A stretch of 64,000 nt of DNA from a virus, in IMG/VR virus record IMGVR_UViG_3300002334_000064, positions 1 to 64,000 of that record. One strand, written 5' to 3'. The translations under genes and the position numbers were made by a program. The notes beneath the pieces are model-generated. The model made no database searches and had not been told where the DNA came from. It worked only from the letters and a program-made list of their open reading frames with translations. Below, one piece after another: positions 816-36,590 of the stretch. Positions within the stretch are counted from its first letter, which is position 1, and each line of letters starts with the position of its first letter.

Positions 816-844
816 GGGACGGGCGTAAAAACCCGTCCCTTTTT
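816..844 (+). terminator. Rho-independent terminator after parB
   Basis: A perfect 8-bp stem, GGGACGGG (816-823) with CCCGTCCC (832-839), has an 8-nt loop and is followed by a T run. It ends the parB transcript before the next gene. Confidence 0.85.
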
Positions 845-859
845 CATAAATGGTGTTGA

Positions 860-1135
860 ATGTCTGACGTTGATAGATATCAAAAATTGAAAGAACGTGA
901 GAGAGTTTGCAGAGAGAAAATCTCTTTCGCTGAAGGTAAATACGGCGAAATTAAAGCCGGTCTTGTTGCGCTGGTGAATAAGGCAATCGAAAACAAATGG
1001 GTAGATGCTGGCGAGAAAAAACCGAGCCAAGCAATCAAGAAACTGATTGAAAGAAATATCGCCGATTCAGACAGGATCACGGCAGAAGTCGAATCGATCC
1101 TTGTTGATGTCGAGGGTGATTGCAATGACGATTGA
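860..1135 (+). CDS. Small charged, probably coiled-coil protein
   Basis: A 91-residue protein, not recognised. It is rich in K, E and R and looks helical, with an acidic end (VDVEGDCNDD). It overlaps the start of the Rad50-type C-half gene by 11 nt, so the two are probably translated together and may work together. ATG 860 has only a weak upstream ribosome site. Confidence 0.6.
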   Translation: MSDVDRYQKLKERERVCREKISFAEGKYGEIKAGLVALVNKAIENKWVDAGEKKPSQAIKKLIERNIADSDRITAEVESILVDVEGDCNDD

Positions 1136-1769
1136 TCTACGCGACAGGCTCACCGCTGCTGACCGCGTGTGCGTCCGCGAGCTTTCTAGGCGTGCCGAGT
1201 GGTCCGATCAGCTAGAAACCCTCACGCGGTCACTGGTGGACGCTGAATCAAGGCTATCCTCGTACGAGGGTGCGGTTGAGATACTACAAAAGGTCGCGGA
1301 CCTTCAACGGGCGAAAACAAGAGATCGTATTGAAGAAATTGTTGACACTGCTATCAAATGTGTGTTTGGCAACCATATGTCTTTTCGTTTCGAGGAATCG
1401 AACAAGCGCAATACGATCAACATTGAGCCGCAAATCGGATACCGCGACGGTTCAAAGAATCAATGGTGTTCGATGGTCAATGTTGGCGGAGGGGTTGCCG
1501 ATGTGGTTTCGTTCTGCCTGCGAGTGACAACGCTTTCTTTGATGAAGAACCGAGTACCACAAATCATTATTGCGGACGAACCTTTTAAATGGGTTTCCGC
1601 TTCTTACCTTCCGGCTGTTGCAGATATGCTTAAATCTCTCTGCAATATCACAGGAATACAAATGTTGATCGTTTCGCACGAGATTGAAATAGCGATTGCC
1701 GCTGATAAGACTTATCGTGTGGAGAAGAATGGGAAATTCTCAGAATTGAAGGACAATAGCAATGCGTAA
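1125..1769 (+). CDS. Rad50/SbcC-type ATPase, C-terminal half only
   Basis: A 214-residue protein matching the second half of an SMC/Rad50 ATPase. Residues about 1-75 look coiled-coil. A signature-like segment follows (VNVGGGVADVVSF, a GGG variant of LSGGQ), then a Walker B and D-loop region (IIIADEPFKWVS) and an H-loop (LIVSHE). There is no Walker A anywhere. That motif is in a separate gene at 5838, so the ATPase appears to be split into two polypeptides. ATG 1125 has GAGGGTG upstream and overlaps the preceding gene; the frame is open further upstream, but starts there would cut deep into that gene. It probably forms the ATP-binding head with the 5838 product and partners the SbcD-type nuclease at 6890. 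Confidence 0.8.
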   Translation: MTIDLRDRLTAADRVCVRELSRRAEWSDQLETLTRSLVDAESRLSSYEGAVEILQKVADLQRAKTRDRIEEIVDTAIKCVFGNHMSFRFEESNKRNTINIEPQIGYRDGSKNQWCSMVNVGGGVADVVSFCLRVTTLSLMKNRVPQIIIADEPFKWVSASYLPAVADMLKSLCNITGIQMLIVSHEIEIAIAADKTYRVEKNGKFSELKDNSNA

Positions 1770-2487
1770 ATTGGAAAATCCGTTTTTGGATATCGGTATG
1801 AGTGAACTTAACCCGCGCCAGTTTTTTAGAGGCACAAGCACAACGGCGCAATATCCATCAACTATGACGCTGTTACGTCAAGATTGTATATATTACAATC
1901 CCGGTCTCACGTATGCACTTCAAGGGCTGACGGGCGAGTGTGGGGAACTCGCGGAGTACGTTGAGCAAATATCCGGTGAAAGTAGTAAGTCACATGGAAC
2001 AGGTCCGAGAATGATTGTTTCCGAACTTGGTGACATTGCTTGGTATATTGCTCGTGTGTGCGCTGAGTTAGAAAAATCGTTTTGTTCTAATATGTCAAAT
2101 CCTATTCTGGTGAATCTGGGACGGGAAGAATATCGCAATACGGGCAATCCAACAATATTGTTTGAACATCTGTTTGATTACTACGTTGATAATGTCATCC
2201 TGAAAAACGGTCACACCAACAGCAAGCGTTGTCCGGTTAACACAATGATTGTGAACGCATGTTTGATTCACAACGTTCATAAGAAAGTGCTGCGTGATAT
2301 GAACGGCGAATTATCGTTGAGTCGTGCTTGCGGAATGTATGGGTTCCTAGAAACAATCATGCATAGTTGGATGGTGGTTTGCATTAGGATTAACGTCAAC
2401 CCGTACGAAATTCTTTATGAAAACAGCGAAAAGCTCGCAGGTCGCAAGCTTCGCAACACCATCGGCGGCGATGGGGATAATCGCTAA
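1762..2487 (+). CDS. MazG-like nucleotide pyrophosphohydrolase
   Basis: A 241-residue protein. Residues about 50-105 carry the MazG-type helix motifs: GLTGECGELAEYVE followed by SELGDIAWYIARVCAEL, with the acidic E-x-x-E and E-x-x-D residues that bind Mg2+. This family hydrolyses NTPs or dNTPs to NMP and pyrophosphate; phage versions may clean the dNTP pool or blunt (p)ppGpp signalling. The C-terminal 120 residues are not recognised. The start overlaps the preceding stop by 8 nt, indicating translational coupling. Confidence 0.75.
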   Translation: MRKLENPFLDIGMSELNPRQFFRGTSTTAQYPSTMTLLRQDCIYYNPGLTYALQGLTGECGELAEYVEQISGESSKSHGTGPRMIVSELGDIAWYIARVCAELEKSFCSNMSNPILVNLGREEYRNTGNPTILFEHLFDYYVDNVILKNGHTNSKRCPVNTMIVNACLIHNVHKKVLRDMNGELSLSRACGMYGFLETIMHSWMVVCIRINVNPYEILYENSEKLAGRKLRNTIGGDGDNR

Positions 2488-2980
2488 GTTGTCTATCGAT
2501 TGGGACAAGGCTTATAGGATTTTGGAACGGCTGAATATATCTATGCCGACCGCTATACCCGGTGAGCCGTTGAACCTTGAGCATTTGCGAGACTTGGCAA
2601 TTGAAGTACATATGAAGCGCGACAAATGCACCGAGGTATACCAAAGGGTTTCGCGTAAAGAGGCGAATTGTAAGCGTGACGTACGGCTTGCAAAAGAGAA
2701 TTTGAGATTGCAGCGAATTGCGAACCGCAATGATTCGGATGTGCTTCGATGTACGACCAAGACAGAAAAGGAATCACTAATTGAAGAATTGGTTGTTGTC
2801 AGTTCGTCGCGTCTTGCAATATTGCAAGGACGTTTAGACGAGTGGCAGGCTTATTTGTCATCGGTTGATATGCAACTGAAGCAACTTGAGCAGAGCAAAC
2901 AGATTTTGAACACGTTGACGAAACTAACACTTGCAGATTTGAAACTGTCTGGGCAACTTCCAGATACTTACCACCTTTGA
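2471..2980 (+). CDS. Unknown coiled-coil protein
   Basis: A 169-residue protein from ATG 2471; the frame stays open to ATG 2417, and neither start has a clear ribosome site. Most of the chain is helical with K/E/R-rich heptads, for example KEANCKRDVRLAKENLRLQ and MQLKQLEQSKQILNTLTKL. It lies between the MazG-like gene and the ssDNA-binding candidate, which suggests a recombination or replication accessory role. No function is assigned. Confidence 0.6.
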   Translation: MGIIAKLSIDWDKAYRILERLNISMPTAIPGEPLNLEHLRDLAIEVHMKRDKCTEVYQRVSRKEANCKRDVRLAKENLRLQRIANRNDSDVLRCTTKTEKESLIEELVVVSSSRLAILQGRLDEWQAYLSSVDMQLKQLEQSKQILNTLTKLTLADLKLSGQLPDTYHL

Positions 2981-2993
2981 AAAGGGAATGACG

Positions 2994-4037
2994 ATGGCGA
3001 AAACATCAAGAATGACGTTTGGAGACGCAGCGGTTAAAACCGGATTTGGTAGCGACAAACCAGAAACCTACAAGGCGGTTGCCGGAAGACGTGACCGTAT
3101 CCGCATTTTGACAATGCCGGGACTTTACGCGACGGCAAACATTGAGTTTGCGAAGGTAAACGATGACAACTCTAAATCCCTTAGTGGGTTTCGTGCAAAC
3201 TCTCTTGTTACCGCGACTGATAACGAGGATTTGCTTTACGATGCCATCATTACAGGCGACAGGAACGCAATCGAGAAATGTAAGAAGATTTGCCCGTTAT
3301 TCTCCGACGGGTACAAGATCAAGCCGAGGTTTCCTGTTCTTATTCATCACATTTCGTCATCGGCTTCCGGTGCAAAGCGTGAAAAAAAGGTTGATGATTT
3401 CTTGGCTTGGGACTTACCGGCAACCAATTACACATTGATTCGTGACCTTGTTGAGTCACTGCCAACAAATCCGAAAACCAAGAAACAGCTTGATATTCGT
3501 AGCGTCGAAATTTTCGTTACTTGCTCGGATGAGAAGTTCCAGAAAGTCAACCTGAACGCGATAACCGGTGCCGATGATATGAAGACCAAACTTGGAGCTT
3601 CATACGCGGCTGCTATTGAAGCCGGTGTTATGGTTGACGGCGCATCCGAGAAAGTTGGATCGATTACCGCGTATGACGTAATCGATATTTGTTCTTTGAT
3701 TGAGGCCGATTCTGAATCTGATCTGAAGGAATCTCTTGATCGTGCCGCGAAGAGTATGAGTAGCGGCGCTAATAATGATGACATTGACGAATTTGATGAT
3801 GAAGCCGATGATGATTTGGATGAATCGCCGGTAGCGAAGAAGACGACAAGAAAAAAGACTACGAAGAAATCGTTTACTTCTCAAAAGGCGTCTTCCTCAG
3901 CCAAAGCGAAATCCCCTTCTGATGAAGAAGAAGACAAAATTGATGATCTTGGTGACGAGCTTGATGATCTTTTAAATGACGATTCCGATGATGGCGAAGA
4001 CGACCTTGATGATGACCTTGATGATGATCTTGATTGA
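2994..4037 (+). CDS. Probable single-stranded DNA-binding protein with acidic tail
   Basis: A 347-residue protein. The body (residues about 20-240) has no motif I can assign with certainty. The last 90 residues alternate Lys/Ser-rich stretches (KKTTRKKTTKKS) with a highly acidic end dominated by D-D-L-D repeats. An acidic C-terminal tail after a nucleic-acid-binding body is the plan of phage SSBs such as T4 gp32 and T7 gp2.5, and the gene sits next to ruvC, recA and the SbcCD genes. ATG 2994 is preferred over ATG 2988 because it places AAAAGGGA 6 nt upstream. SSB identity is inferred from architecture and neighbours. Confidence 0.55.
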   Translation: MAKTSRMTFGDAAVKTGFGSDKPETYKAVAGRRDRIRILTMPGLYATANIEFAKVNDDNSKSLSGFRANSLVTATDNEDLLYDAIITGDRNAIEKCKKICPLFSDGYKIKPRFPVLIHHISSSASGAKREKKVDDFLAWDLPATNYTLIRDLVESLPTNPKTKKQLDIRSVEIFVTCSDEKFQKVNLNAITGADDMKTKLGASYAAAIEAGVMVDGASEKVGSITAYDVIDICSLIEADSESDLKESLDRAAKSMSSGANNDDIDEFDDEADDDLDESPVAKKTTRKKTTKKSFTSQKASSSAKAKSPSDEEEDKIDDLGDELDDLLNDDSDDGEDDLDDDLDDDLD

Positions 4038-4071
4038 TTAAATCGAGTCGTTAGGTTTTCGCATTGATCTA

Positions 4072-4105
4072 AATTCCGTAGGGCCGAAAGACTCTACGGA
4101 ATTTT
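4072..4105 (+). terminator. Hairpin before ruvC: terminator and/or translational switch
   Basis: A 10-bp stem, AATTCCGTAG (4072-4081) with CTACGGAATT (4094-4103), is followed by a T tract. The ruvC ATG starts at 4106, directly after it. The likely ribosome site of ruvC (ACGGA) lies in the 3' arm, so folding would both favour termination and hide the site. Confidence 0.65.
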
Positions 4106-4672
4106 ATGACTTACAAAGCAATCGGTTTAGATCATTCTCTAACAAACACAGGTGTTGCGTTTGTCGTTACGGATGGAAACAAGATACTGAATTACAGCAC
4201 GCACACGATAAAGACCACATCGAAAGAACCAATCGAACAGAGAGTATCATTCATTGCGACAGGTGTTAGAAAGCTAATTGCAAGCTCGACAATAGGCGTA
4301 TGCGCGTTTGATGATTTAGGCATCGAGAACGTATCGAGAGGTTCAAAATTCCGGCGTGAAGAAATGGGCATGTCGTTCGCAGCCGCGCTGATCGGTTCTT
4401 ACTCATTCGTACGAAAAGGATCAGCAAGTGTAACGCTCGTGACACCGCAACAACATAAGGTGATGTTGTGCCCGAACTGGCACGGTACGAATAAAGTGAA
4501 TTGGGAAAAGATGGGACGAACCGGGAAATTCAAACGTTCTATGCCAGACAAGATTTCAACAATGTCGGCTTTGTACGCGACACACAAAATCAAAGTCACG
4601 AACGACCACGAATCAGATGCAGCCGCAATAGCTATATACGTTGCGATTAAAAACGGAGGTTTGAAGATATGA
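4106..4672 (+). CDS. ruvC: RuvC-like Holliday junction resolvase
   Basis: A 188-residue RNase H-fold nuclease. It begins with the first catalytic strand (AIGLDHSLTNTGVAFV, Asp9). A second acidic motif is DDLGIENVSRGSKF, next come the helix EEMGMSFAAALIGS and a TPQQHK segment, and NDHESDAAAIAIYVAI near the C-terminus holds the last acidic residues. This matches the D-E-D-D arrangement of RuvC. It would cut Holliday junctions made by the RecA and SbcCD-type genes around it, or resolve branched DNA before packaging. It overlaps recA by 4 nt. Confidence 0.88.
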   Translation: MTYKAIGLDHSLTNTGVAFVVTDGNKILNYSTHTIKTTSKEPIEQRVSFIATGVRKLIASSTIGVCAFDDLGIENVSRGSKFRREEMGMSFAAALIGSYSFVRKGSASVTLVTPQQHKVMLCPNWHGTNKVNWEKMGRTGKFKRSMPDKISTMSALYATHKIKVTNDHESDAAAIAIYVAIKNGGLKI

Positions 4673-5841
4673 GCGAACAACTAAATGCAGCGCTGAAAAG
4701 TTTGAACAGAGAAAAGAAAAAGGTTTTGTTCATACCGAACCCGAGACGCGTTATACCGATGCGGCACAAAGAACTAGGACGGCTTCTATCGGGTGACATT
4801 GAACCGGGACTACCAACGGGTGTATATATCGAACTACGCGGTGCAGAGCATTCAGGGAAGACCACAACCGCGTTTGCAATGATTGAAGCTGTTATAAATC
4901 AGAAGCCGGACAAGTGTTTGAAGTTGGATGAAACTGGGATTGTTGAATCAGATATCCCGAGACGTGTTTTGTTCCTTGATTTTGAACACGCGCTATCATT
5001 GCCGTACATGTTCAAAGCTATTCGTGGTGCGATTATTGCACAGTTTAATGAGAAGGGTGATTGCACAAACATTGATGAAGCAAACTTGTTTATACATCAA
5101 CCCGAGAACATCGAAGAGGGTGGTGATATTCTCAAGTCACTTATGGCAACAGGTGAATTTGGTTTAGTTGTTGTTGATTCTGTAGCCGCTGCTGTTGGGA
5201 AAGAAGAACAAGATAAGACAATGGGCGAGAACACGGTGGGGTTGCAAGCTAGGGCGATGGGTAAATTGTTTCGTAAGGTCACAAATACGATGGCAAAGAA
5301 CGGTGTAACTATTGTTCTCGCAAATCAGTTACGAGACAAGATTGGGGTTGTATTTGGTGAGAAGACTTTCGCACCGGGCGGCAGGGCTAAAGATTTTTAC
5401 GACGCAATCATCATTAATATTTCAGGACGTAGAGATAACCCGTATTTTGAGGACGGCAAAACCGTTGACCTAAGAGCAAAGAAAAACAAGATCACCGGTA
5501 AACTTGAAAAGGTTACGTACTATTGCGGACGAGCTTGGGGTCTATCTTCGGAGGTCGAACTGTCCGAGCGTGCTTTGTCTTTGGGAATCATCGGGAACAA
5601 ACGAAGATCAAGTACGGTTTACCTGTTTCCTGAAAACATGAAAGCAAAGACGATATCGAGCAAGCGCACGTATAAGAATTTTGATACTTGGCTACAGGTG
5701 TTGCGGGATAACGATAAGATGTTTGAATTGGTATTCAGGCATTGTGAAAGTGCTATTGATAAAGATGGGTGTATTGATAACGGAGATGAAGATGAATTCG
5801 TTGATGATTCGCCCGGTAGAGGAAAGTTGAGTTTCCGATGA
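4669..5841 (+). CDS. recA: RecA-like recombinase
   Basis: A 390-residue protein with the RecA core. The Walker A is GAEHSGKTT (residues about 58-66; bacterial RecA has GPESSGKTT). Other RecA motifs follow: LFLDFEHALS (VDAEHALD motif), Walker B LVVVDSVAAAV, LQARAMGKLFRK, and the loop 2/DNA-binding stretch NQLRDKIGVVFG with APGGRA. The C-terminus is acidic (DNGDEDEFVDD), as in RecA and UvsX. It catalyses strand exchange for phage recombination. The start overlaps ruvC and the stop overlaps the Rad50-type N-half, forming one tightly coupled block. Confidence 0.93.
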   Translation: MSEQLNAALKSLNREKKKVLFIPNPRRVIPMRHKELGRLLSGDIEPGLPTGVYIELRGAEHSGKTTTAFAMIEAVINQKPDKCLKLDETGIVESDIPRRVLFLDFEHALSLPYMFKAIRGAIIAQFNEKGDCTNIDEANLFIHQPENIEEGGDILKSLMATGEFGLVVVDSVAAAVGKEEQDKTMGENTVGLQARAMGKLFRKVTNTMAKNGVTIVLANQLRDKIGVVFGEKTFAPGGRAKDFYDAIIINISGRRDNPYFEDGKTVDLRAKKNKITGKLEKVTYYCGRAWGLSSEVELSERALSLGIIGNKRRSSTVYLFPENMKAKTISSKRTYKNFDTWLQVLRDNDKMFELVFRHCESAIDKDGCIDNGDEDEFVDDSPGRGKLSFR

Positions 5842-6893
5842 AAACCTTACCGAAAAACCCGAAAATCTCCATGATTGCGGCTCGCAATTGCCGCTCTTGG
5901 GAAGACCTGAATCTGAATTTATCACCCGGTCTAACGGTTATCATTGGCGACAGTGATAGCGGCAAGACAAATATAATCCGCAACATCAACAGCATTCTGA
6001 AAAACGATAGCCGCAAGAGTTTGACAACACACGGAACGGATGAAGACGCATTCGTACAAGTATGTTTTCAAGAAGCAAATGCGTTCGGTAACTTTTTGCC
6101 TGAATGGGTTGTTGAGCTTTCAAAGGGTGAGAAGATTAATTCGTATTGCACGTTTCGTGTTGTTTACAACCAAAGCAGTTACGAAGAACAACCTGAACAT
6201 GATTTTATAGACAAGTCAGAGTATGATTCAGTAGGTTCTTCAGTGCCCGACGAGATATCGAAGGTACTTCGGATTGGTCCGGTTGATCTTGGTGGCGAGT
6301 CTGTTGATTTCAATGTTGCGAACCAAAGAGGTGGATTGTTTGGTGTTGACGATACACCCGCAAGGTTTGCAAAGATCATCGGCGCGGTGTCTGGGATATC
6401 AACGGTATTCTCGGCAATCAAGAGCGGTAACAGTACGTGCCGTGAAATCCGATCAAAGATGAAACACGAAAAAGTTACGCGTGACGAATTGGTTGAAAAG
6501 ATCGAACAATCGGAAACCAGTTGGAATGTTGCGGTGACTCAAGAGAACATTGAGACGGCATCGTGTAAGGTCGAAAAGATTGAAGCGATACAGTCAGACA
6601 TTCAGAAACAAGAAGGTTGGCGGGATAGATACCGCAAAGGCGTTGAGAAAGGTACACGTTATAGAAAAATCGCAAACGTGAATACAGACAACCTTTCACG
6701 CTCGCTCGGCAAGCTCAAAGTATCAGAAGACAAACTTCATCAAATGATCGACTGGATGAAGCGGCGCGTTAGCCAACATCATTTGATAAATACTACAGCC
6801 GAAGAGATCGAGCATATGAAAAAGAACTTGAAAGACGTACAACAAGAGTTGAGCGAGTTTGAATCTTGCCCACTATGTGGCGGGGAAATATGA
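5838..6893 (+). CDS. Rad50/SbcC-type ATPase, N-terminal half ending at a zinc hook
   Basis: A 351-residue protein. The first 40 residues are the SMC/Rad50 N-terminus (IAARNCRSWEDLNLNLSPG) followed by Walker A GDSDSGKTN. From about residue 200 it is coiled-coil, and it stops at ESCPLCGGEI, a CxxC zinc hook that in Rad50 marks the apex of the coil. The signature, Walker B and H-loop are absent here but present in the gene at 1125-1769. The protein is therefore one half of a split ATPase, not a random truncation. It is coupled to recA upstream (ATGA) and to the SbcD-type nuclease downstream (ATGA). A copy of the dispersed palindrome lies in codons 12-17. Confidence 0.85.
   Translation: MKTLPKNPKISMIAARNCRSWEDLNLNLSPGLTVIIGDSDSGKTNIIRNINSILKNDSRKSLTTHGTDEDAFVQVCFQEANAFGNFLPEWVVELSKGEKINSYCTFRVVYNQSSYEEQPEHDFIDKSEYDSVGSSVPDEISKVLRIGPVDLGGESVDFNVANQRGGLFGVDDTPARFAKIIGAVSGISTVFSAIKSGNSTCREIRSKMKHEKVTRDELVEKIEQSETSWNVAVTQENIETASCKVEKIEAIQSDIQKQEGWRDRYRKGVEKGTRYRKIANVNTDNLSRSLGKLKVSEDKLHQMIDWMKRRVSQHHLINTTAEEIEHMKKNLKDVQQELSEFESCPLCGGEI
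5873..5889. repeat. Dispersed palindrome copy 1 (one arm mismatch)
   Basis: GATTGCGGCTCGCAATT in codons 12-17 of the Rad50-type N-half gene, 36 nt after its start. Confidence 0.8.
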
Positions 6894-7969
6894 TGTTGAA
6901 GATTGGTGTATTCGGTGACGTGCATATGTCGGAATATGGCCCCGCGTCTCGCAAGAGATATCTAAACTGTCTGATTGAAAAATTCTTTCAGATAGAAGAA
7001 TTCGATAAACAGTTCAAGCCCGATGTGTGGGTTTGTCCGGGCGACTGGTTTCACTCTAAGACACGTGCTACTCATTACGAGGTGAGCACCCTTATTGACT
7101 GCCTAACCAGTGTGACAGAGCGTACGGGCGAACCAGTGCTAACCATTGTCGGCAATCACGACTTGGACGGGGATAACCGGCAATCGATAAACAAACAACC
7201 GGTGAGTGTCTTAGCCGCGAGCGGCGTTGTTAAATTTGTGGATATGAAAACTGGCGATCCAAACTACATCGAAAAAGACGGTGAGTCTTACGCGTTCGTT
7301 GGGATTCCTTGGGATAGAAACTTGACGGATTCCGCAGACTTGAGGACCAGAATATCCACGGCGTGTTTGTCAGAAATAGCGGTTGCGAAATCGAACGATA
7401 TAAATCTTGGCGGCATTATTGTTATTTGTCATTGCGACGTGCGACCGTTCAAGACAAAAGATTTTTCGTTGCAAATACCGAATCTTCCGAGCACTGCGAA
7501 CATACAAGGACGGAATTTTAAAACGCCCGCTTCTGGAAACAGTATTAACGGCGTGCCAATTATGCTCATCAATGGTCACTTGCACGACCAACAGAAATTT
7601 GTATCTGGTGATCGCCTTTCCGGGCTTTGGACCGGTTCGCTTATGCGTACAAGTCGCAAGGATGACATTGAGCCTACGATATACATGGCAAGGATAAGCG
7701 CGAGCAACACGCCATGCATGAAGTGTGCTAAAACAATACTTGAGTCTTTGCCTATGGATAAAGCGTTTAGCAGCAAAGTAGACAGTACGGAAGAGATTAC
7801 CCATAATGGCGGGTTGGATGATTTCGCAAACGCGTTGCTAGTAAACGATGATGAAAACAATGAAGACTTATCGGTTACCGTTGACCGAGTATCAAAGCAA
7901 TTCGATTTTGATGATGATGCAGTGAGTACCGCTAAACTTCTTTTGGAATCCGTTGAGATAGTTGGGTAA
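6890..7969 (+). CDS. sbcD: SbcD/Mre11-like nuclease
   Basis: A 359-residue calcineurin-like phosphoesterase with its metal-binding motifs in order: GDVH near the N-terminus, PGDWFHSK, GNHDLDG, CHCD, and GHLHD near residue 225. These bind two Mn2+ ions in Mre11 and SbcD. The last 80 residues are acidic and probably contact the ATPase. ATG 6890 overlaps the N-half stop and has GGGG just upstream. With the two Rad50 halves it would process DNA ends and hairpins, as T4 gp46/gp47 do. Confidence 0.9.
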   Translation: MMLKIGVFGDVHMSEYGPASRKRYLNCLIEKFFQIEEFDKQFKPDVWVCPGDWFHSKTRATHYEVSTLIDCLTSVTERTGEPVLTIVGNHDLDGDNRQSINKQPVSVLAASGVVKFVDMKTGDPNYIEKDGESYAFVGIPWDRNLTDSADLRTRISTACLSEIAVAKSNDINLGGIIVICHCDVRPFKTKDFSLQIPNLPSTANIQGRNFKTPASGNSINGVPIMLINGHLHDQQKFVSGDRLSGLWTGSLMRTSRKDDIEPTIYMARISASNTPCMKCAKTILESLPMDKAFSSKVDSTEEITHNGGLDDFANALLVNDDENNEDLSVTVDRVSKQFDFDDDAVSTAKLLLESVEIVG

Positions 7970-8595
7970 TGGCTAAACGTAGAAAGAAAGTTGTTTCAAA
8001 GAAACGCCGAAGCGTTCGCGCTGAGGTTGTGGAAAAACCGGTTTCTAAAAAACTTCCGCCTATTGAGTTTTACGTTCCACCAAGTCAACATCGGAAGCTT
8101 GGGCGGTACAAGTACGAAGTTATTGCAGAAGCTTTTTACTTGGAAATGAATCTGAGTCTTCGTGAGTTTTGCGAGAAGTATCATCTGACGTACGAGGTTG
8201 TCAGAAAACACCCGCGACTTAATCCGAAACTACGAAGCGCTTCCGCGTTCGCTTCTAAGTCAAGGTCTTATCAATCACTACTTGCGTCGGTCAAGATTGA
8301 TACAGATATTTCGATTGCACGGTTTCAGAAACAATTGATAACAAACATGGGCCTTGTTGATGCATTGCAACGATGGTGCGAATCGAAGATCGTGTTGAAC
8401 ACGGACAACGGCAGAGTTGCAAACACCACATTACCCATAGGTCAAGCCTCAGCCGTTTCGCGGATACTTAAAACATGTTCCGAAGTCATCGTTACAAACT
8501 ACGAATACATCAACGAACTTGAAGCTGATATTGCTACCGAAGAAAAGATCAAACCGAGCTTCGTTGTTGAAGAAAAGAAAAGGATAGAAAAATGA
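7969..8595 (+). CDS. Unknown basic protein with possible helix-turn-helix
   Basis: A 208-residue protein with a strongly basic N-terminus (AKRRKKVVSKKRRS), then a helical segment (LREFCEKYHLTYEVVRKHP) that could be an HTH, as in some small terminase subunits. It is coupled to sbcD (TAATG) and to the next gene (ATGA). A packaging role is possible but the terminase large subunit is 32 kb away. Not recognised beyond this. Confidence 0.55.
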   Translation: MAKRRKKVVSKKRRSVRAEVVEKPVSKKLPPIEFYVPPSQHRKLGRYKYEVIAEAFYLEMNLSLREFCEKYHLTYEVVRKHPRLNPKLRSASAFASKSRSYQSLLASVKIDTDISIARFQKQLITNMGLVDALQRWCESKIVLNTDNGRVANTTLPIGQASAVSRILKTCSEVIVTNYEYINELEADIATEEKIKPSFVVEEKKRIEK

Positions 8596-9389
8596 ATATT
8601 CAATCAGTAGTAAGCCAGATGAAAGACCGCAATTTCGTTGTAAACGCTTGCGGCGGATTGCTCGCGCATCCGTCCAAGCCGAACAAGAAACGGTTCCGAT
8701 ACAACGAAACATCGGATAAGGCCGGGCAGATTCCGAATGAGCATGAAATATGCGCGGTTGCTTGGTTGGCTCAAAGAGTACATCAAGCAAAGAGACGATC
8801 TGGTGACGAATACTACATTTCAAACTTGTTAGCGATTGATGATAAGTTTGGCTTGCTCTCGTCCATGTTCTGTATGCAACACTGGTCCAGAATCAAGGAT
8901 GTTGTGCTTGCATTTTCAAATATGCCTGAACCGCACGGTATCGGCTTAGGTATGAATGTTGAAAGTGCCGAGGTACGAAATGCGTTTGACAACATCGCAA
9001 CTTGGGGTGTTGATTCGCTCGCACCCAAAGGCCACCCATCGAAAACGCTACTGCATCGAATCTGGTTCGGTACTGACCTTGACAAGGTGCATAAGAACGG
9101 GCAACAGTTCGATTATGAATGGATTATCAGTTGTACGCCTTGGGGTAATTTGATTGTCGATGCACCGTTTAAAATTACTTGGGTTGAAACCAAAGAGTTA
9201 GGCGATGAACTGGAAAAGCAACTTGAACCAAACTTTGACGGTTCAAGCGCCCGCATTCTTGATCGCCTGTTCTTTGAGTATAAAAAAGAGATCGTGAGTA
9301 CCGAGCCGGGAAAGCTAGAAAGTTCTGGTACTAGATGGGATGCGGGTATGAGTGTTACTGACGATGAAATTGTTGGAATGGAAGAATAG
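8592..9389 (+). CDS. Unknown protein in the recombination operon
   Basis: A 265-residue protein, not recognised. It looks globular, with no signal peptide or membrane segment, a Trp-rich middle (ATWGVDSL, RIWFGTDLD, YEWIISCTPWG) and an acidic C-terminus. It is the last gene of the coupled series starting at ruvC, so a DNA-metabolism role is plausible. Confidence 0.6.
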   Translation: MNIQSVVSQMKDRNFVVNACGGLLAHPSKPNKKRFRYNETSDKAGQIPNEHEICAVAWLAQRVHQAKRRSGDEYYISNLLAIDDKFGLLSSMFCMQHWSRIKDVVLAFSNMPEPHGIGLGMNVESAEVRNAFDNIATWGVDSLAPKGHPSKTLLHRIWFGTDLDKVHKNGQQFDYEWIISCTPWGNLIVDAPFKITWVETKELGDELEKQLEPNFDGSSARILDRLFFEYKKEIVSTEPGKLESSGTRWDAGMSVTDDEIVGMEE

Positions 9390-9416
9390 AATTTGAAGGA
9401 CTAAAACAGGCTCGTG

Positions 9417-9433
9417 AATTGCGAGCCGCAATT
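9417..9433. repeat. Dispersed palindrome copy 2
   Basis: AATTGCGAGCCGCAATT between the 8592 gene and the probable thyX start. Confidence 0.95.
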
Positions 9434-9454
9434 GTTGATCTGAAAGGTGTTGTT

Positions 9455-10375
9455 GTGACTGGACAATTAAGAACTGTTGAGCGTATCCACTTAGATAGCG
9501 AAGACACGTATGATGTGCTTTGCTCTAGCGAGTGGGGATACGCACTAGAACGCGGGCAGTACGTCAATCTCGTTGACTGTATGCCTCGACTGGTTGATCT
9601 ATCAGACGGTCAACCCAAGACAATCGAGCACGCTATATGCGATGCGGCAAGGGTCTCGTACAGCGGAGGAACAAAGAAGACCCGGAACAACGCCGGGTTG
9701 ATCCGCTACATGCTGAGACACAAACACACTTCACCGTTTGAAATGGTGAAGTTCAAATTCTCTGTCTGTTGTCCTTTGTTTGTTGCCCGCCAATGGGTAC
9801 GTCACCGAATGTCGAATACAAACGAGGAATCTGGTAGATACTCGGAACTTCGGATTGACAATCAATTCTTGCCGATGGAAGTGAGAGCCAACGACGATAA
9901 AAACAAACAGGCAACCAGTCAAATTGTGGGCGAGGGTGACGCTGATTGGTTTGTCCAAAAGCTTATGAGTGTTCAAGAGTACTCTTCTGACTTGTACCTT
10001 GAGGCTGTTCGGGAGCGTGGTATAGCAAGGGAGCAGGCGCGTTGCCTTCTAGGTGTAACGGTGCTCACCCGGTTCGTGTGGTGTATTGATCTTCACAACC
10101 TGTTGCACTTCTTGACGCTGCGACGTGACCCACACGCACAGAAGGAAATCAGAGACTTCGCGGATGGTATCTATTCACTGATTGGTTCGTTGGTGCCTGA
10201 TACGATCGCGGCGTACGAGGATTGTATTTTGAATTCAATCACATTAACGCAAACAGAGATCAACGCGATTGTTTCGGTTGGGCTGCAAGACCCGAGCATT
10301 CTGAATCAAAAAGGGTTTGAAGGTCTGAAGACATTGGCAGACAGAACAAGCACGAACAAACAGGAAATTATCTAG
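9455..10375 (+). CDS. thyX: Flavin-dependent thymidylate synthase ThyX
   Basis: A 306-residue protein from GTG 9455, which has AGGTG 5 nt upstream. The frame is open to TTG 9419, but that start has no good ribosome site. The ThyX motif is present as RHRMSNTNEESGRYSEL (RHR-x7-S type), with the later family pattern LLHFLTLRRDPHAQKEIRDFA. It makes dTMP from dUMP using FAD and methylenetetrahydrofolate. About 50 residues at the N-terminus precede the usual ThyX core and are not recognised. The dispersed palindrome at 9417 lies just ahead. The dNMP-kinase-like gene follows after one base. Confidence 0.9.
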   Translation: MTGQLRTVERIHLDSEDTYDVLCSSEWGYALERGQYVNLVDCMPRLVDLSDGQPKTIEHAICDAARVSYSGGTKKTRNNAGLIRYMLRHKHTSPFEMVKFKFSVCCPLFVARQWVRHRMSNTNEESGRYSELRIDNQFLPMEVRANDDKNKQATSQIVGEGDADWFVQKLMSVQEYSSDLYLEAVRERGIAREQARCLLGVTVLTRFVWCIDLHNLLHFLTLRRDPHAQKEIRDFADGIYSLIGSLVPDTIAAYEDCILNSITLTQTEINAIVSVGLQDPSILNQKGFEGLKTLADRTSTNKQEII

Positions 10376-11020
10376 ATGAAAACAATTGCGTTTATCATGG
10401 GTTGTACATGTGTCGGTAAGTCTTCTTTCTTGGAGTACTGCCAATCTCATTATCCGAACAAGGTCGGTCTAGTTGAGGTCGGCAAGACGTTACGAGCGAA
10501 GTATCCACCAGAGCACTTCAAAGGCCAAGCCGCGCCGGAACACACGAAACAAGAGGCTTGGCAGATTTGCGAATCAACCGTCAAGAAGCACGCGAGCGAA
10601 GGAAAGCAACTGATACTTGTTGACGGTCAACCAAGATCAACGCACCAAGTAGAGCAGTGTGTAACGCGGTTCTCTGATTTATGTATGCCGATATGTAAAT
10701 CAGGAATACCTGTTAATGATTGGTTTAGTTTGGAATTTATATACTTTGATGCGTCTTCAGAGCAGCGCGAAGAGCGTATGAAAATAAGACACCCTAGCAA
10801 TGAACACGCTTACGATTCGGCTAGTTACGCGCTAACCGCACAAAGACAAGTGAACGACGAGCGTACTTACCTTCGTGTTTTGGTTGATCTAGAAATTCAT
10901 AATCGAAAATTTACCGTTGTCAAAGTACCGACGATACAAAGTAAAGCCGATCTTGATGATTTCCATTTTTCTACTATGTGTAATCTTTTTGGTCCCTTTG
11001 GACCTGCAAGGCATAATTGA
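10376..11020 (+). CDS. Deoxynucleoside monophosphate kinase-like protein
   Basis: A 214-residue P-loop protein with N-terminal Walker A GCTCVGKSS and, mid-chain, LVDGQPRSTHQVE, which resembles the nucleotide-binding DGxPR segment of adenylate-type kinases. A LID-like arginine-rich part (SSEQREERMKIRH) follows. Next to ThyX it probably phosphorylates dTMP or other dNMPs. The precise substrate cannot be read from sequence. Confidence 0.7.
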   Translation: MKTIAFIMGCTCVGKSSFLEYCQSHYPNKVGLVEVGKTLRAKYPPEHFKGQAAPEHTKQEAWQICESTVKKHASEGKQLILVDGQPRSTHQVEQCVTRFSDLCMPICKSGIPVNDWFSLEFIYFDASSEQREERMKIRHPSNEHAYDSASYALTAQRQVNDERTYLRVLVDLEIHNRKFTVVKVPTIQSKADLDDFHFSTMCNLFGPFGPARHN

Positions 11021-11021
11021 T

Positions 11022-11486
11022 ATGAACGATACAAAAAAACCAACGCTTCACATGTGCATCGGGTTACCGTATTCCGGTTTCGATGAGTGGGCAAAGCGTA
11101 CCGGTATGCCAATGGTTCGACTGGATAGCCTGCGCAACGTGATGCACGGTCAGAAGTTTTGGAAGAACGCCGAGCCTTCGGTATGGTCCAACGCTAAATT
11201 GTTTGTGGGTTCTCTTTTCGATGCGGGGCATTCAGACGTTGTTCTTGTTGCTCCGATGTGGTTGCGTAAACATCGGTCACGTTGGAGTGATACCAGATGG
11301 GATCGCACCGCGATACGGTTTGAGGCAGATTTCTTTGAGTGTCAGAAGCGAGCAGTTGCGGCAGGGAACACCGGCGTTATTCAGGTGATGCAACGTATGG
11401 CTAACTCGTTTGATGAGCCTGATGCGGCGTATGAGGACTTTCTGAGTGTTGAGCGTGTGAGTATGACTAACGCACTCAGAGAATAA
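11022..11486 (+). CDS. P-loop kinase relative with a degenerate Walker A
   Basis: A 154-residue protein resembling the small AAA_33 or polynucleotide-kinase type. MCIGLPYSGFDEWAKRTG aligns with the usual GLPGSGKSTWA, but Lys-Ser/Thr is replaced by Phe-Asp, so ATP binding should be lost or altered. Later parts keep a kinase look (VRLDSLRNVMHG; DRTAIRFEADFF). ATG 11022 follows the upstream stop directly; a longer in-frame start lies inside the preceding gene and is rejected. It may be regulatory or decaying. Confidence 0.6.
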   Translation: MNDTKKPTLHMCIGLPYSGFDEWAKRTGMPMVRLDSLRNVMHGQKFWKNAEPSVWSNAKLFVGSLFDAGHSDVVLVAPMWLRKHRSRWSDTRWDRTAIRFEADFFECQKRAVAAGNTGVIQVMQRMANSFDEPDAAYEDFLSVERVSMTNALRE

Positions 11487-11510
11487 TTTCAAAATAGATC
11501 ATTTCACCCA

Positions 11511-11538
11511 TTGCACTACCCGATAAACACGGTAAGGT
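11511..11538 (+). promoter_or_regulatory. Sigma70-type promoter of the TTGC/TAAGRT family
   Basis: TTGCAC (11511-11516), a 16-nt spacer and TAAGGT (11533-11538), followed by AG-ATGTGT. The layout matches the promoters at 23293, 23679 and 39100. The start point is predicted near 11545. Confidence 0.8.
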
Positions 11539-11544
11539 AGATGT

Positions 11545-11562
11545 GTGATAAATGGGTATCAC
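11545..11562 (+). promoter_or_regulatory. 5'-terminal mRNA hairpin, loop AATGGG
   Basis: GTGATA, loop AATGGG, TATCAC: a perfect 6-bp stem placed exactly at the predicted transcript start. The same loop with different, compensating stems occurs at 23713 and 39134. Confidence 0.75.
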
Positions 11563-11580
11563 AAAATGAAAGGACAACAA

Positions 11581-11922
11581 GTGAGCGAAGATACGACCAA
11601 GATGCTAAAGCTTGGTGAAGAATGGATTGAGATCGGCGTTACCGCCGATACAGGATGTAGCGTATACGTGAAGCCATTCACGACCGTCAACAAATGTGAT
11701 ATTGGATCATCTATCGAAGACCTAACGGCACACGATCAACTTTGGAGCGCTCAGGATATCGCAGACCAGTTGTTGGTCTTGCAAAACATGAAGAGCGGAA
11801 CCGCCTTGTACTTTGAAACTCGGTATCTCGGTGATCGTGGTAACGGGTTGGTTACAGGTGACGATTGGGCGCAGAAGTCCCGCACATCTTCACGGGTTGC
11901 GAGTCTTGGAACGCTGGCCTAG
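11581..11922 (+). CDS. Small unknown protein, moron-like unit
   Basis: A 113-residue protein, not recognised; no membrane segment. GTG 11581 is chosen because AAAGGAC lies 5 nt upstream and because upstream in-frame starts fall at or before the predicted transcript start. The gene has its own promoter and 5' hairpin and two terminators after it, the layout of an independently expressed accessory gene. Confidence 0.7.
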   Translation: MSEDTTKMLKLGEEWIEIGVTADTGCSVYVKPFTTVNKCDIGSSIEDLTAHDQLWSAQDIADQLLVLQNMKSGTALYFETRYLGDRGNGLVTGDDWAQKSRTSSRVASLGTLA

Positions 11923-11931
11923 TAAGAGGCT

Positions 11932-11968
11932 ACCCGCTAAAGGTTGAGATGCCTTTGGTGGGTTTTTC
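11932..11968 (+). terminator. Rho-independent terminator
   Basis: ACCCGC-t-AAAGG pairs with CCTTT-g-GTGGGT (11932-11963), followed by TTTTTC. It closes the unit that begins at the 11511 promoter. Confidence 0.85.
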
Positions 11969-21959: not shown

Positions 21960-23093
21960 ATGACAAAGAACAGATGCAGGGTATTTCGCGGGGATTGCGT
22001 AAACCTTGCGTCCAGACTGCCGGACAACTACGTACACAGTATCGTGACCGATCCGCCCTACGGCATAAAGTTCATGGGGAAAGATTGGGATGGTCCGGGC
22101 GGCGTAGCTTTCCAAAAAGAGACTTGGGAAGAGTTCTTAAGGGTTCTAAAGCCCGGCGGTCACGTGCTCGCGTTCGGCGGAACAAGAATGCATCATCGGT
22201 TGATGGTTGCGATTGAAGATACCGGGTTTGAGATACGCGATTGTTTGATGTGGTTGTATGGCTCGGGCTTCCCTAAGTCTCACAACGTCAGTAAAGGGAT
22301 TGACAAAGCGGCGGGGGCAACCGGAACGAGAGGTTCGCTAAAAAGAGGCGGGGATCGATTAGCGAGTCTTGAAAATGGCAAGCGAGACGGCAAAGGACGA
22401 TGGGGAGATGAGGTAGGGAGGAACCCTTATACTACAATTCCCGCAACCGATGCCGCAAAACAATGGGACGGATGGGGCACCGCACTAAAGCCAGCATGGG
22501 AACCGATCGTACTCGCCCGTAAACCGTTCAATGGCACCGTTGCAAAGAACGTACAAGAGCATGGTACGGGCGCAATGAACATTGACGGGTGTAGGGTTGG
22601 GACGGATGATAGTCTTGGTGGTGGAGCCACTAAGGGGAAAACAGTTTGTTCTCATAACGGGGAGGCTTGGGATCGGCCTTGGAAACATAATGATGATGCG
22701 AGGGAATCCCACGCATCCAGAGTTAGAGACAACGTAGTAAAAGCCGAAATGCTTGGCCGCTGGCCCGCAAACCTAATACTTGATGGGGAAGCTGGTGCAA
22801 TACTTGATGAATCTGTAAAAGAATCACCATCCCGGTTCTTCTACTGCCCAAAGACGAATAAAAAAGAACGCAATCTAAATGGGTGTGACAACAGACACCC
22901 GACCGTTAAGCCGACAGAGCTTATGCGGTATCTCGTGCGACTCATCACGCCACCGAACGGAATCGTTCTTGATCCGTTTTGCGGATCGGGTTCAACTGGC
23001 CTAGCGTGCCAACGCGAAAATATGCGCTTCATCGGTTTCGACAAAGACATAGAATCCGTGCAATGGGCACGCAAGAGAATGGGGATAGACTAA
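21960..23093 (+). CDS. DNA N6-adenine/N4-cytosine methyltransferase, beta class
   Basis: A 377-residue enzyme. The catalytic motif DPPYG is near residue 30, and the SAM-binding motif (DPFCGSGSTGLAC) is near the C-terminus. This order defines the beta class. HPTVKPTELMRYLVRL before the SAM motif is characteristic. A long insert (residues 110-280) may recognise the target. The target base and sequence cannot be read. No restriction nuclease is adjacent, so it is probably an orphan methylase protecting phage DNA. Confidence 0.9.
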   Translation: MTKNRCRVFRGDCVNLASRLPDNYVHSIVTDPPYGIKFMGKDWDGPGGVAFQKETWEEFLRVLKPGGHVLAFGGTRMHHRLMVAIEDTGFEIRDCLMWLYGSGFPKSHNVSKGIDKAAGATGTRGSLKRGGDRLASLENGKRDGKGRWGDEVGRNPYTTIPATDAAKQWDGWGTALKPAWEPIVLARKPFNGTVAKNVQEHGTGAMNIDGCRVGTDDSLGGGATKGKTVCSHNGEAWDRPWKHNDDARESHASRVRDNVVKAEMLGRWPANLILDGEAGAILDESVKESPSRFFYCPKTNKKERNLNGCDNRHPTVKPTELMRYLVRLITPPNGIVLDPFCGSGSTGLACQRENMRFIGFDKDIESVQWARKRMGID

Positions 23094-27200: not shown

Positions 27201-27422
27201 ATGAAAGTTGAAAACATGGACCCGTCAGAAATCAGTACGTTTATTGAATTCCTCGTGTGGTGCTTTGAATCGCTCCATCGGTTCATCGGCCTGCTATTGC
27301 TCTTTTTCCTTGCATCGCTACTGTTCTCGGTTGGGTTGTCTGAAGGTTTTGGTAAGTTTTGTTTAGTGAGAATCACCAAAAGCCAAGACACAAATAATTA
27401 TCAATGGAACAAGGATGAGTAA
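27201..27422 (+). CDS. Small single-span membrane protein
   Basis: A 73-residue protein with an acidic N-terminus (MDPSEISTFIEF) and one long hydrophobic segment (FIGLLLLFFLASLLFSVGL). Start uncertain: TTG 27153, ATG 27201 and ATG 27216 all lack strong sites. It overlaps the next gene by 8 nt. Confidence 0.5.
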   Translation: MKVENMDPSEISTFIEFLVWCFESLHRFIGLLLLFFLASLLFSVGLSEGFGKFCLVRITKSQDTNNYQWNKDE

Positions 27423-28299
27423 GATTCCGCTATTTGAACCATGTACCGCCAACCACGTTTTAGACAAAACGTCTGAACGTGGTTGGTTTTTTAATCAATT
27501 GGTTCTCATAGAAGGGACGTTCGGCGCGGGACGATGGGACTGGTGGATTGCTCGAACGATGAAAGACGGAAGGCTCGGGAATCACCAGATACCGCAAATA
27601 GAATTCATCGACTCACCACAATCTAAACCGGCCCCTAGGATCGGCTGGGACGCGTCGATGTGTGAATTGGCGTCAACACCGGGTGAGACGTTCAAGCTCG
27701 CTACAGACGTGTTTGATAGGCTCATGCGTGACGGTACGAACGTGTCTTGCATCCTCGATTGGTTCCTGTACGCGTGCGGGGACAATTCGGTAGAAAGACC
27801 CAAACATCTATCCGGTGAACATGAAGTGTTCTTGTATCAAGAGGGTATGTTGATGCTCTCGCGTATGATCGCCAATCCGACCGATTGGGGCCAACACATC
27901 GCCGGGTATATTCAGGGTGGCGGCAAACAGTTTACCGGGTGGTTCCCTACGCCCGTGTGCCTGTCTCGCTTGATGGTTGAAGCGACATTCAACGAACCAG
28001 AGAAAAACGATTACCGATTGAAAAGTGTTTGCGATCCGTGCGTAGGTACGGGTGTGATGCTGCTACACGCGTCGAACTACTCGCTTGATCTTTACGGACA
28101 AGATATCGACGTGGTAATGCTGAAGTGGTGTAGATTGAATGGGTATCTATTCGCGCCTTGGATGGTTGCGAAGTGGCACAAGATGTTGGAAGAGTACGAG
28201 AATCGACCGGTTGAACAATCAACCGACAAATCAAATACGTTCCGTAGGCGCGGCAAAGTCTACAGAGTAAAGAGAAAGAAAAAGGTGATAGCAAGATGA
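27415..28299 (+). CDS. DNA methyltransferase-like protein without catalytic motif
   Basis: A 294-residue protein. The C-terminal half resembles N6-adenine methylases of the HsdM type: FTGWFPTPVCLSRLMVEATF, SAM motif SVCDPCVGTGVMLLHAS, and YGQDIDVVMLKWCRLNG. The NPPY/DPPY catalytic motif that should follow is absent; the chain ends in a basic tail. It probably binds SAM or DNA but cannot methylate by itself unless partnered. ATG 27415 has GGA 6 nt upstream. A complete terminator hairpin lies inside codons 12-26. It is coupled (ATGA) to the Dam-like gene. Confidence 0.65.
   Translation: MSKIPLFEPCTANHVLDKTSERGWFFNQLVLIEGTFGAGRWDWWIARTMKDGRLGNHQIPQIEFIDSPQSKPAPRIGWDASMCELASTPGETFKLATDVFDRLMRDGTNVSCILDWFLYACGDNSVERPKHLSGEHEVFLYQEGMLMLSRMIANPTDWGQHIAGYIQGGGKQFTGWFPTPVCLSRLMVEATFNEPEKNDYRLKSVCDPCVGTGVMLLHASNYSLDLYGQDIDVVMLKWCRLNGYLFAPWMVAKWHKMLEEYENRPVEQSTDKSNTFRRRGKVYRVKRKKKVIAR
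27449..27492 (+). terminator. Terminator hairpin inside the start of a gene
   Basis: CCAACCACGTT (27449-27459) pairs with AACGTGGTTGG (27476-27486), 11 bp, with an inner AGAC/GTCT and six T after it. It lies within the coding sequence begun at 27415, so translation would have to disrupt it; attenuation is possible. Confidence 0.75.
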
Positions 28300-29078
28300 G
28301 ATTGAAGCCATTTTTCTCTTACTACGGTTCAAAGTACCGGATAACCGGGCTATACCCGAAACCGAAACATGATCGTATTATTGAACCATTTGCGGGGTCA
28401 GCTAATTACGCACTCATGTATCACGATAGAGATATATTTCTTTGCGACATTGACCCTACGATTGTTCGCATTTGGGATTATTTGATAAACGTTAGCGAAG
28501 ATCGCATTTTGTCTTTACCAGACGTTTGCATAGGTGACCATTTAGATGATGTCAAGTTCGATGGTTTGGTTTGGGCAGAGAGATCGTTGATCGGGTTTTA
28601 TCTAAATGGCGGCGCGGCTGTTCCTTGCCGCACACCTTCTAAATGGATGGTTGACCTGATACAAAAAAACAAATTGACAAGTAATTATTGGGGACAATTG
28701 GCGAGAGAGAAAATTGCAAGCCAATTGAAATATATTCGTCATTGGAAAGTACGCATGTGCGGGTATTGGTCAATCGAAACTAAAGCACATGCAACGTGGT
28801 TTATTGATCCGCCTTATCAGAAAGCAGGTATTCATTACAAAGCAAGTTCTGAAACTCTCAACTATGAAAATCTTGCTATTTGGTGTAGGTCTAGAAAAGG
28901 TTTAGTTATTGTTTGTGAGAATCAAGGCGCAAAATGGTTGCCGTTTAGAGATTTTGTAATTTCTAGATCAACCACAAAGAACGGTGCAAACTATTCCAAA
29001 GAAGTAATTTGGACCAATGATACGTATTCGTTTAAACGTGATGGTAAAATATACGTCACAAAAAAGAAAAGGTGGTAG
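28296..29078 (+). CDS. Dam/D12-class N6-adenine DNA methyltransferase
   Basis: A 260-residue alpha-class methylase: FFSYYGSKYR near the N-terminus, SAM motif EPFAGSANYALMY, and catalytic DPPY (in WFIDPPYQKAG, near residue 170). This order and the FxYxGSK opening are typical of Dam and phage D12 enzymes. It adds a methyl group to N6 of adenine in a short, unread target. Base composition looks more AT-rich than its neighbours, hinting at separate acquisition. Confidence 0.9.
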   Translation: MRLKPFFSYYGSKYRITGLYPKPKHDRIIEPFAGSANYALMYHDRDIFLCDIDPTIVRIWDYLINVSEDRILSLPDVCIGDHLDDVKFDGLVWAERSLIGFYLNGGAAVPCRTPSKWMVDLIQKNKLTSNYWGQLAREKIASQLKYIRHWKVRMCGYWSIETKAHATWFIDPPYQKAGIHYKASSETLNYENLAIWCRSRKGLVIVCENQGAKWLPFRDFVISRSTTKNGANYSKEVIWTNDTYSFKRDGKIYVTKKKRW

Positions 29079-33221: not shown

Positions 33222-33254
33222 TCCGCGTTGCACGAAAGCGTTACGCGGATTTTT
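33222..33254 (+). terminator. Terminator before the large virion gene
   Basis: TCCGCGT (33222-33228) pairs with ACGCGGA (33243-33249), then TTTTT. Confidence 0.8.
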
Positions 33255-33296
33255 ACAGAAATTACAAACTTCCTTTCACACAAGGGAATTATTGCA

Positions 33297-36200: not shown

Positions 36201-36590
36201 TCTTCAGATACCAATCTGTCTGACGCTGACGGCAGGCACGTGATGATGACAGGCGGGGACAATATCCTGTTTGCCTTACATGTGCTAAGCTCGGGCGTCT
36301 ACGCTGCCGTAGAAATTGGTGGCGTGTTCAAAGCGACGGCTGTTGTAACCGGAACAACGGCAACGATGACTTATATACAAGATGGTGCTAATTTCCAACA
36401 TGTGAAATCTAAAGCAATGGAGTTAGAATATATCTTCACATCGCTTATGACAGAGGCGGAATATGGAAACGACGAAGATAGATTCGCAAGCTTCATTTCT
36501 TTGATTCGTGATATTGATGTGAACGACTCGGTTGGTATCAGCAAATCAATAGGCGGGCGACACGGAATTACAGTTGTAGAAAGAGTTTAA
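33297..36590 (+). CDS. Large virion protein, probable tail fibre or receptor-binding protein
   Basis: A 1097-residue protein rich in Gly, Asp, Tyr, Trp and Ser, with low Lys, as in extracellular beta-rich phage proteins. SDDGGDTWG near residue 560 is an Asp-box (S-x-D-x-G-x-T-W) of BNR/sialidase-like propellers. ATG 33297 is chosen because AAGGGA precedes it, while the in-frame TTG 33228 is inside the terminator. It follows a terminator and so needs its own promoter or read-through. Adhesin role is inferred. Confidence 0.65.
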   Translation: MEIVDYREQSKHIDMLSFSRGAYTRKWDGEHLSPNVKRFARRKAICSRTPITDLVTDTIIQHGSGFDEIRASGYASDMTRMISMRVTSPRKLNDAGNAVQGTNGDVQIYVGDVKTIFAKIQSGEYTSPSLVNGYGYASYDEGEIYMYGGVWQGYMGGLDGAVASLFSGAEPVRTFEAIPEWLDKPDSESYDGAVSFTPAYGSVRRGCLVAQFRGARYVGNVDATDSTRWSCDGTGYFMWQEPANKASPVGHWTKLRDHNDWVNVGQPHGDLFGDASNYRYDHCVGRIRNSEWSRVRWSTLGVRNSESISKVFCYADDYMHGGTIDGVTGSKGAVQSLFSIDYDGSTYTLSSKVDFHELYDPASDSDVEADDQRHGHGCYLHLVWNAANTARYMVLVVASSDNPFDGLSAMYLPYNYDPNDPDAGTWEANFSDPTEWVGDSQSDFANKIWLTGGEYTDALASGGRLFSLTQGPNDDEFLATSDANFAPVTVITWTKIDEPPTFRAAFNQADFGPSYSFDLVQDKPGDPTSKMACLVWRGGPNNGYSDLSDDTYRAMLSDDGGDTWGMGHYPYLPGRCLAIIQNHILFCGSFDIKKAEWPEIIKGPFLTMARGGLNMGAFDPPASRDPMSIGEFGSLTSPDVELGLERADSGSGVNTNNGGFVHDGVELPRDPGDAVFAGFIYTGTSGGESMLINPFFHNSSKSNDGELVDGQAQITYVGLALRSNWEWPTRQIGSNTFAIRLYTGGGDNGNELPEDSAVYVPAGSARAFSFDSTEEWTEFTVTYPAGFNFDDLANSMSNTGLRFRIKPNGNNWAAGVYYTYEQVYQGPHWPMFPTPPGADNDSSAFPETVLLNWVVPVNHVIFGARVIPISLNPRLLPWFINTVDSNMQDAGDPAAVPGSTEAPLPQNYYEQNMELVFCENVITLCEHGDTTSDDFVRLEIIDQADSDSGSTMPPVIIRLSGEMNGVPFSSDTNLSDADGRHVMMTGGDNILFALHVLSSGVYAAVEIGGVFKATAVVTGTTATMTYIQDGANFQHVKSKAMELEYIFTSLMTEAEYGNDEDRFASFISLIRDIDVNDSVGISKSIGGRHGITVVERV

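Follow-up and report, generated by a model that had tools for sequence, protein, structure and literature searches.

A conserved split Rad50 in phages and Bacillota, probably rebuilt in trans with SbcD

Introduction

Here, we report that a 64,000-nucleotide stretch of viral DNA (hereafter the window; positions 1–64,000 of the 68,318 bp IMG/VR record IMGVR_UViG_3300002334_000064) encodes the ATPase Rad50/SbcC in two separate genes, an N-half and a C-half, with the cut at the zinc hook. In Rad50 as it is known, a single chain carries both arms, and the hook joins them within that molecule. The split is not peculiar to the window genome but marks a whole family, found in many phages and in Bacillota chromosomes. 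Judging from sequence and from structure models, it is very probable that the two halves rebuild a Rad50 in trans with the nuclease SbcD. Their function is best read as the processing of DNA ends, to serve recombination-dependent replication or repair. A universal repair machine seems to exist here in a stable design that has not been described so far; the literature searched, with subscription literature outside its scope, contained no description of a split Rad50 or SbcC, although novelty is not thereby proven.

Results

Two chains carry the elements of one Rad50 head

An initial annotation of the window had read the gene at 5838 as a Walker A motif and a coil ending in CxxC, and the gene at 1125 as a coil followed by a GGG signature, Walker B, D-loop and H-loop; all of these elements were located. 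The N-half contains the Walker A motif GDSDSGKT, the invariant Q163 of the Q-loop and a long helical arm, which is modelled as helices 187–225 and 231–339 and leads to a C-terminal CPLC. Both cysteines of this motif, C344 and C347, are invariant across 61 aligned N-half sequences. The CxxC, a zinc hook by its motif, thus stands at the C-terminus of the chain instead of mid-chain, and the N-half ends four residues after it, which bears out the proposal that the split falls at the apex of the coil. The predicted structure of the N-half (predicted local distance difference test, pLDDT, 85.7) matches the Rad50 chains 9a9j_A, 1f2u_C, 3qkr_A and 1ii8_A in Foldseek searches. At the sequence level its profile matches Rad50 best or near-best, including the A chains of Pyrococcus furiosus Rad50 crystals.

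The C-half starts with an 81-residue helix, which is followed by the signature variant VGGG, the Walker B motif IIIADE, a VS D-loop and an SH H-loop. The residues D151 and E152 do not vary among 79 aligned C-half sequences, and the near-complete conservation of these two and of H185 makes ATP hydrolysis plausible. The signature is mostly [R/V/S]GGG[V/I] in 110 aligned sequences and departs from the canonical LSGG(E/Q), its serine being replaced by glycine in nearly all split-Rad50 members. The model of the C-half (pLDDT 95.7) matches the Rad50 chains 1f2u_B, 1ii8_B, 3qkr_B and 9a9j_B, and its profile likewise matches Rad50 best or near-best, including the B chains of the P. furiosus crystals. 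This lobe also resembles the heads of SMC and RecN, and with the C-half model SMC heads reach similar scores. In SMC proteins, a hinge domain would take the place of the CxxC hook, but here a CxxC hook terminates the N-half. We assign the C-half to Rad50 and not to SMC because this hook and the SbcD neighbour favour that choice. Rows from the phage collection were left out of the alignments used for structure prediction.

Taken together, the two chains hold what an ATP-binding cassette (ABC) head needs: Walker A and the Q-loop in the N-lobe, and the signature, Walker B, D-loop and H-loop in the C-lobe. Both halves are supported by PHROG, Pfam and NCBIfam matches, and in one relative (L201) they match residues 3–470 and 800–892 of a single 895-residue NCBIfam Rad50 model. 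The expected partner is present by gene proximity: as had been noted, the nuclease gene directly follows the N-half, and the start codon of this SbcD-like gene overlaps the stop codon of the N-half (ATGA, 4 bp shared). As the database matches, the Rad50 chains found by Foldseek and an equivalent arrangement in a second locus (L092, described below) agree, the arrangement is not due to chance. A second, full-length Rad50, which would have spoken against this assignment, is absent from the whole 68,318 bp record, which has no end repeats and may be incomplete; the phage SbcC family matches the C-half only.

The split recurs across phages and bacteria

Viral and bacterial collections were scanned, followed by profile searches of all open reading frames (ORFs). 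The scan queries were the split proteins, and distant full-length relatives would have escaped them; when either half was used as a lone query against the viral collection, no matches were obtained. The profile searches returned 228 N-half and 224 C-half matches, and none of the ORFs searched contains both halves. The same split, which the initial annotation had suggested seeking in other phages, was found in 170 non-redundant linked loci with one N-half and one C-half each. The two halves lie on one strand in all 170, with an SbcD-like gene on the same strand in 168. A CxxC is located no more than 45 residues from the N-half end in 169 of them. The sole exception (L009) is a fusion of SbcD and N-half in one ORF (9044–11374), which continues for 138 residues beyond its CPLC hook; these residues were considered as the small protein described below and rejected, since profile searches give no match. 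Elsewhere, a compact overlapping set of N-half, SbcD, small protein and C-half occupies 7645–10480 of locus L249.

Isolates with both halves include Bacillus phage vB_BboS-125, Microbacterium phage Magritte, in which the halves are unlinked, and Tunturiibacter phage Tunturi_5, whose N-half is 126952–128397; ORF23 of the last phage was rejected as an N-half. In vB_BboS-125, an SbcD-like reading frame (NC_048735.1:22429–23301) is unannotated in the record. On a tree built from both lobes, a branch separates the 89 split rows from six full-length proteins (Shimodaira–Hasegawa-like approximate likelihood ratio test, SH-aLRT, 97), a result that is indicative only, given the long branches.

It is improbable that the halves are independent proteins, each acting alone or with other partners without rebuilding a Rad50 head. 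In large phages they are sometimes tens of kilobases apart, and their arm lengths differ, as such independence would allow; nevertheless, when the whole record was searched wherever the retrieved segment contained only one half, 16 of 16 distinct records longer than 100 kb proved to have both halves, and the virus records without a second half were all 90 kb or shorter. Moreover, neither half alone has all of the motifs that an ABC ATPase needs, and the two match opposite ends of one Rad50 model and two chains of one crystal.

Covalent rebuilding of a full-length Rad50, by split-intein protein splicing or RNA trans-splicing, is less probable still. It would account for separate genes of one protein and for the tolerance of any gene order, but the junctions contain no intein or extra domain: most N-halves stop 3–24 residues past the CxxC, and the C-half begins directly with its arm helix. 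Searches matched no intein-type family, and each half has its own start and stop codons.

Gene order and the reversed arrangement

The initial annotation had described the split as one in reversed order, with the C-half about 4 kb upstream of the N-half and five genes between them. This layout was recovered, with 4.07 kb from the C-half stop to the N-half start and five identified genes. However, only the order is rare, the split itself being family-wide: the N-half precedes the C-half in 168 of 170 linked loci, and the C-half comes first only in the window and in L092. The order in L092 is small protein, C-half, coil protein, ssb-like gene, RuvC, UvsX, N-half and SbcD, without MazG. The two loci are sisters on the both-lobe tree (support 99), near large phages with widely separated halves. 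Since L092 repeats the reversed order and holds this sister position, we regard the order as an old, kept rearrangement and not as an assembly error.

Least probable of all is that decay or mis-assembly broke a rad50 gene in the contig, as might be suspected of a virus record that lacks end repeats and may be incomplete. L092 has an equivalent gene order at 27–46% identity (C-half 35%, N-half 29%, UvsX 46%, SbcD 27%), and the cut recurs in the 170 loci, including that of the isolate vB_BboS-125, and in unlinked form in Magritte, so that conserved relatives already refute this explanation. An origin of the split by intein, intron or faulty assembly was thus considered and rejected in each case. 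Because many phages and some bacterial chromosomes show the same cut at the hook, the split looks like a stable design and not a broken gene.

Unequal arms and a candidate third piece

The separate chains have unequal arms, unlike a single polypeptide with equal arms around its hook. In the window, the arm of the N-half has 157 residues and that of the C-half 81; among relatives, the N-arm has a median of 256 residues (145–442) and the C-arm is nearly constant at about 83, the N-arm being the longer in 89 of 89 pairs. The initial annotation had taken the two genes to supply one complete ATPase. This holds for the head, which fits, but the arms mismatch without a further piece. Parts of the long N-arms must therefore fold on themselves or pair otherwise. 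In long N-halves such as L005:4302–5669, repeated helix–loop units with LP motifs were seen by eye, as if the arm folded on itself.

A conserved third gene, which was absent from the initial account, encodes a small protein of 77–100 residues with two helices predicted from its sequence pattern. It lies directly 5′ of the C-half in most loci and in relatives often overlaps the C-half start. A profile of this protein, whose scores can be inflated by coiled-coil composition, places it between the halves in 155 of 170 linked loci. Six-fold cross-validation was run on 146 loci: the ORF with the best score lies between the halves in 134 and directly 5′ of the C-half in 121, and the remaining loci mostly differ in ORF boundaries only. 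The window candidate, which overlaps the C-half start by 11 bp, is the top-scoring ORF in cross-validation, but its membership rests on position and composition because its score alone is weak (E = 0.38). The counterpart in L092 was not picked up by the profile.

We hypothesize that the small protein forms the distal arm. The two sides of the hook are nearly equal in length in phage T4 gp46 and Staphylococcus phage Twort SbcC, and in the window the N-side has 343 residues against 214 for the C-half alone and 305 for the C-half plus small protein, which hints at such a role.

Bacterial chromosomes and NurA–HerA

NurA and HerA adjoin the split Rad50 in 31 of 80 loci from bacterial genomes, most of which are Bacillota according to their record titles; such neighbours were found neither in the window nor in any of 160 viral loci. 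One NurA–HerA–SbcD–split Rad50 cluster is L230:2596–10555, and among the 30 others is one in a deltaproteobacterial metagenome-assembled genome (L178). The Tumebacillus avium locus runs NurA, HerA, an AIM24-like gene, SbcD, N-half and C-half, amid ordinary chromosomal genes. A prophage origin of the bacterial-genome loci was rejected, as the neighbours in L230 (enoyl-CoA hydratase, a two-component system, NurA and HerA) show a chromosomal locus. Passages of two papers describe archaeal NurA and HerA as acting with Mre11–Rad50 in DNA end resection (PMC4641729; PMC2288612). The genome of Sutcliffiella horikoshii (locus L224) also encodes, beside the split form and an ordinary 1148-residue SbcC, a 526-residue SbcC-like protein with CQTC (L303).

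Layout of the window locus

The record belongs to a tailed phage, with terminase, portal and head genes matched. The features of the locus are collected in Table 1. After the hairpin at its start, the next strong terminator-like hairpin on the + strand is at 11932–11963; both are consensus matches, the number found being about that expected from shuffled sequence. As it is bounded by these hairpins, which are weak evidence, 860–11922 may be one transcription unit, and the Rad50 halves may share it with the UvsX, RuvC-like and ssb-like genes. Elsewhere in the window, 33228–36590 encodes a 1120-residue protein without any PHROG or Pfam match, two neighbouring DNA methyltransferase-like genes (N6_Mtase and D12 class) lie at 27415–29078, and another methyltransferase is encoded at 21960–23093.

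Table 1. Features of the split-Rad50 locus in the window.
Feature	Position	Strand	Basis or remark
Terminator-like hairpin	816..839	+	Consensus match; just 5′ of the small-protein gene
Small coiled-coil/helical-hairpin protein, 91 residues, candidate third piece	860..1135	+	Position as in most relatives
Rad50 C-half, 214 residues	1125..1769	+	Sequence profiles, structure model, Foldseek
MazG-like pyrophosphohydrolase	1762..2487	+	Profile matches; between the halves
Coiled-coil protein	2417..2980	+	Gene of similar size at the equivalent position in L092
Acidic-tailed protein, perhaps single-strand-binding	2988..4037	+	L092 homolog (E 1e-13); function from position and acidic tail only
RuvC-like resolvase	4106..4672	+	Profile match; also in L092
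UvsX/RecA-like recombinase	4669..5841	+	Profile matches; also in L092
Rad50 N-half, 351 residues	5838..6893	+	Sequence profiles, structure model, Foldseek
CPLC zinc-hook codons (residues 344–347)	6867..6878	+	Four residues from the N-half chain end
SbcD/Mre11-like nuclease	6890..7969	+	Profile matches; also in L092

Discussion

A model for the assembly

If the Rad50 is rebuilt in trans, the N-half would supply lobe I, the ascending arm and the C-terminal zinc hook, and the C-half would supply the head-proximal part of the descending arm and lobe II. The two lobes would close into one ABC head, and two heads, dimerized through zinc at the hooks, would sandwich ATP. SbcD would bind the arm bases as in Mre11–Rad50, and the small helical-hairpin protein, whose gene usually stands between those of the two halves, would probably complete or cap the arm at its distal end. 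DNA ends would then be processed by this complex for the RecA-type recombinase that is encoded alongside.

Several points weigh against this assembly. The structure predictions covered single chains only, and the predicted template modelling score (pTM) of the N-half model is only 0.56. The both-lobe tree has a small outgroup in addition to its long branches. In ordinary Rad50, the signature serine touches the ATP phosphate of the partner head, and hence ATP-driven head closure may differ where it is replaced by glycine. Finally, because the N-arm is the longer in every pair compared, the arms cannot pair over their full length as in ordinary Rad50.

A further proposal, which we put forward tentatively and hold to be somewhat on the doubtful side, is a three-piece Rad50 with a non-covalently closed apex. 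N-half, C-half and hairpin protein would together form each arm, the ring would open at the hook or arm to admit or release DNA, and end processing would be switched by the assembly of the pieces; in many Bacillota, this design would also be the chromosomal Rad50, working with NurA–HerA.

The third piece, the possibly openable apex and the link to NurA–HerA are the main reasons for experimental interest. The split form offers a ready-made system for studying the roles of hook and arms, as its pieces can be omitted or swapped singly. It also explains why these genes are annotated as an unrelated ‘exonuclease’, ‘ATPase’ or ‘hypothetical protein’, and phages or Bacillota seemingly without Rad50 may possess a split one. 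In addition, it connects the recombination cassette of a phage with a bacterial operon for end resection of the archaeal type.

Comparison with known systems

The jumbo phages described in PMC7824862 have a split DNA polymerase III alpha and split RNA polymerase subunits, which are likewise single enzymes encoded in separate parts, but other enzymes; SbcC is treated there as an ordinary ortholog. SbcD–SbcC fusions are also known, among them that of Bacillus phage 0305phi8-36; one SbcC NTPase segment is reported as unobserved in the phage protein and in Anaerostipes (PMC3175470). This resembles the SbcD–N-half fusion of L009, and in the passages available from that paper no separate second half is described; it may be an early sighting of the split form. 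In PHROG, the two halves match families 16465 (‘exonuclease’) and 15167 (‘ATPase’), which are listed separately and are linked neither to one another nor to Rad50 halves.

Phage T4 gp46/gp47 and Twort SbcCD share with the split form the ABC head, the zinc hook, the SbcD/Mre11 partner and the setting of phage recombination. However, T4 gp46 and Twort SbcC are single chains with the hook near the middle (residue 287 of 560 and 322 of 636, respectively), whereas the split form has two or three chains. The lobes also match Rad50 structures of cellular SbcCD and archaeal Mre11–Rad50, from which the split form differs in being cut at the hook, in having GGG for SGG (LSGGE in Escherichia coli) and in the extra small protein between the halves. 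The archaeal NurA–HerA–Mre11–Rad50 cluster has its likeness in the bacterial-genome loci, where NurA, HerA, SbcD and split Rad50 stand together. A further parallel is the P. furiosus Rad50 catalytic domain (1f2u, 1ii8 and 3qkr), in which N- and C-segments likewise form one head as separate chains. In those crystals, the cut is reportedly artificial and made for crystallography, whereas in the split form it is natural; that this natural cut is conserved at precisely the hook suggests a dispensable covalent link at the apex.
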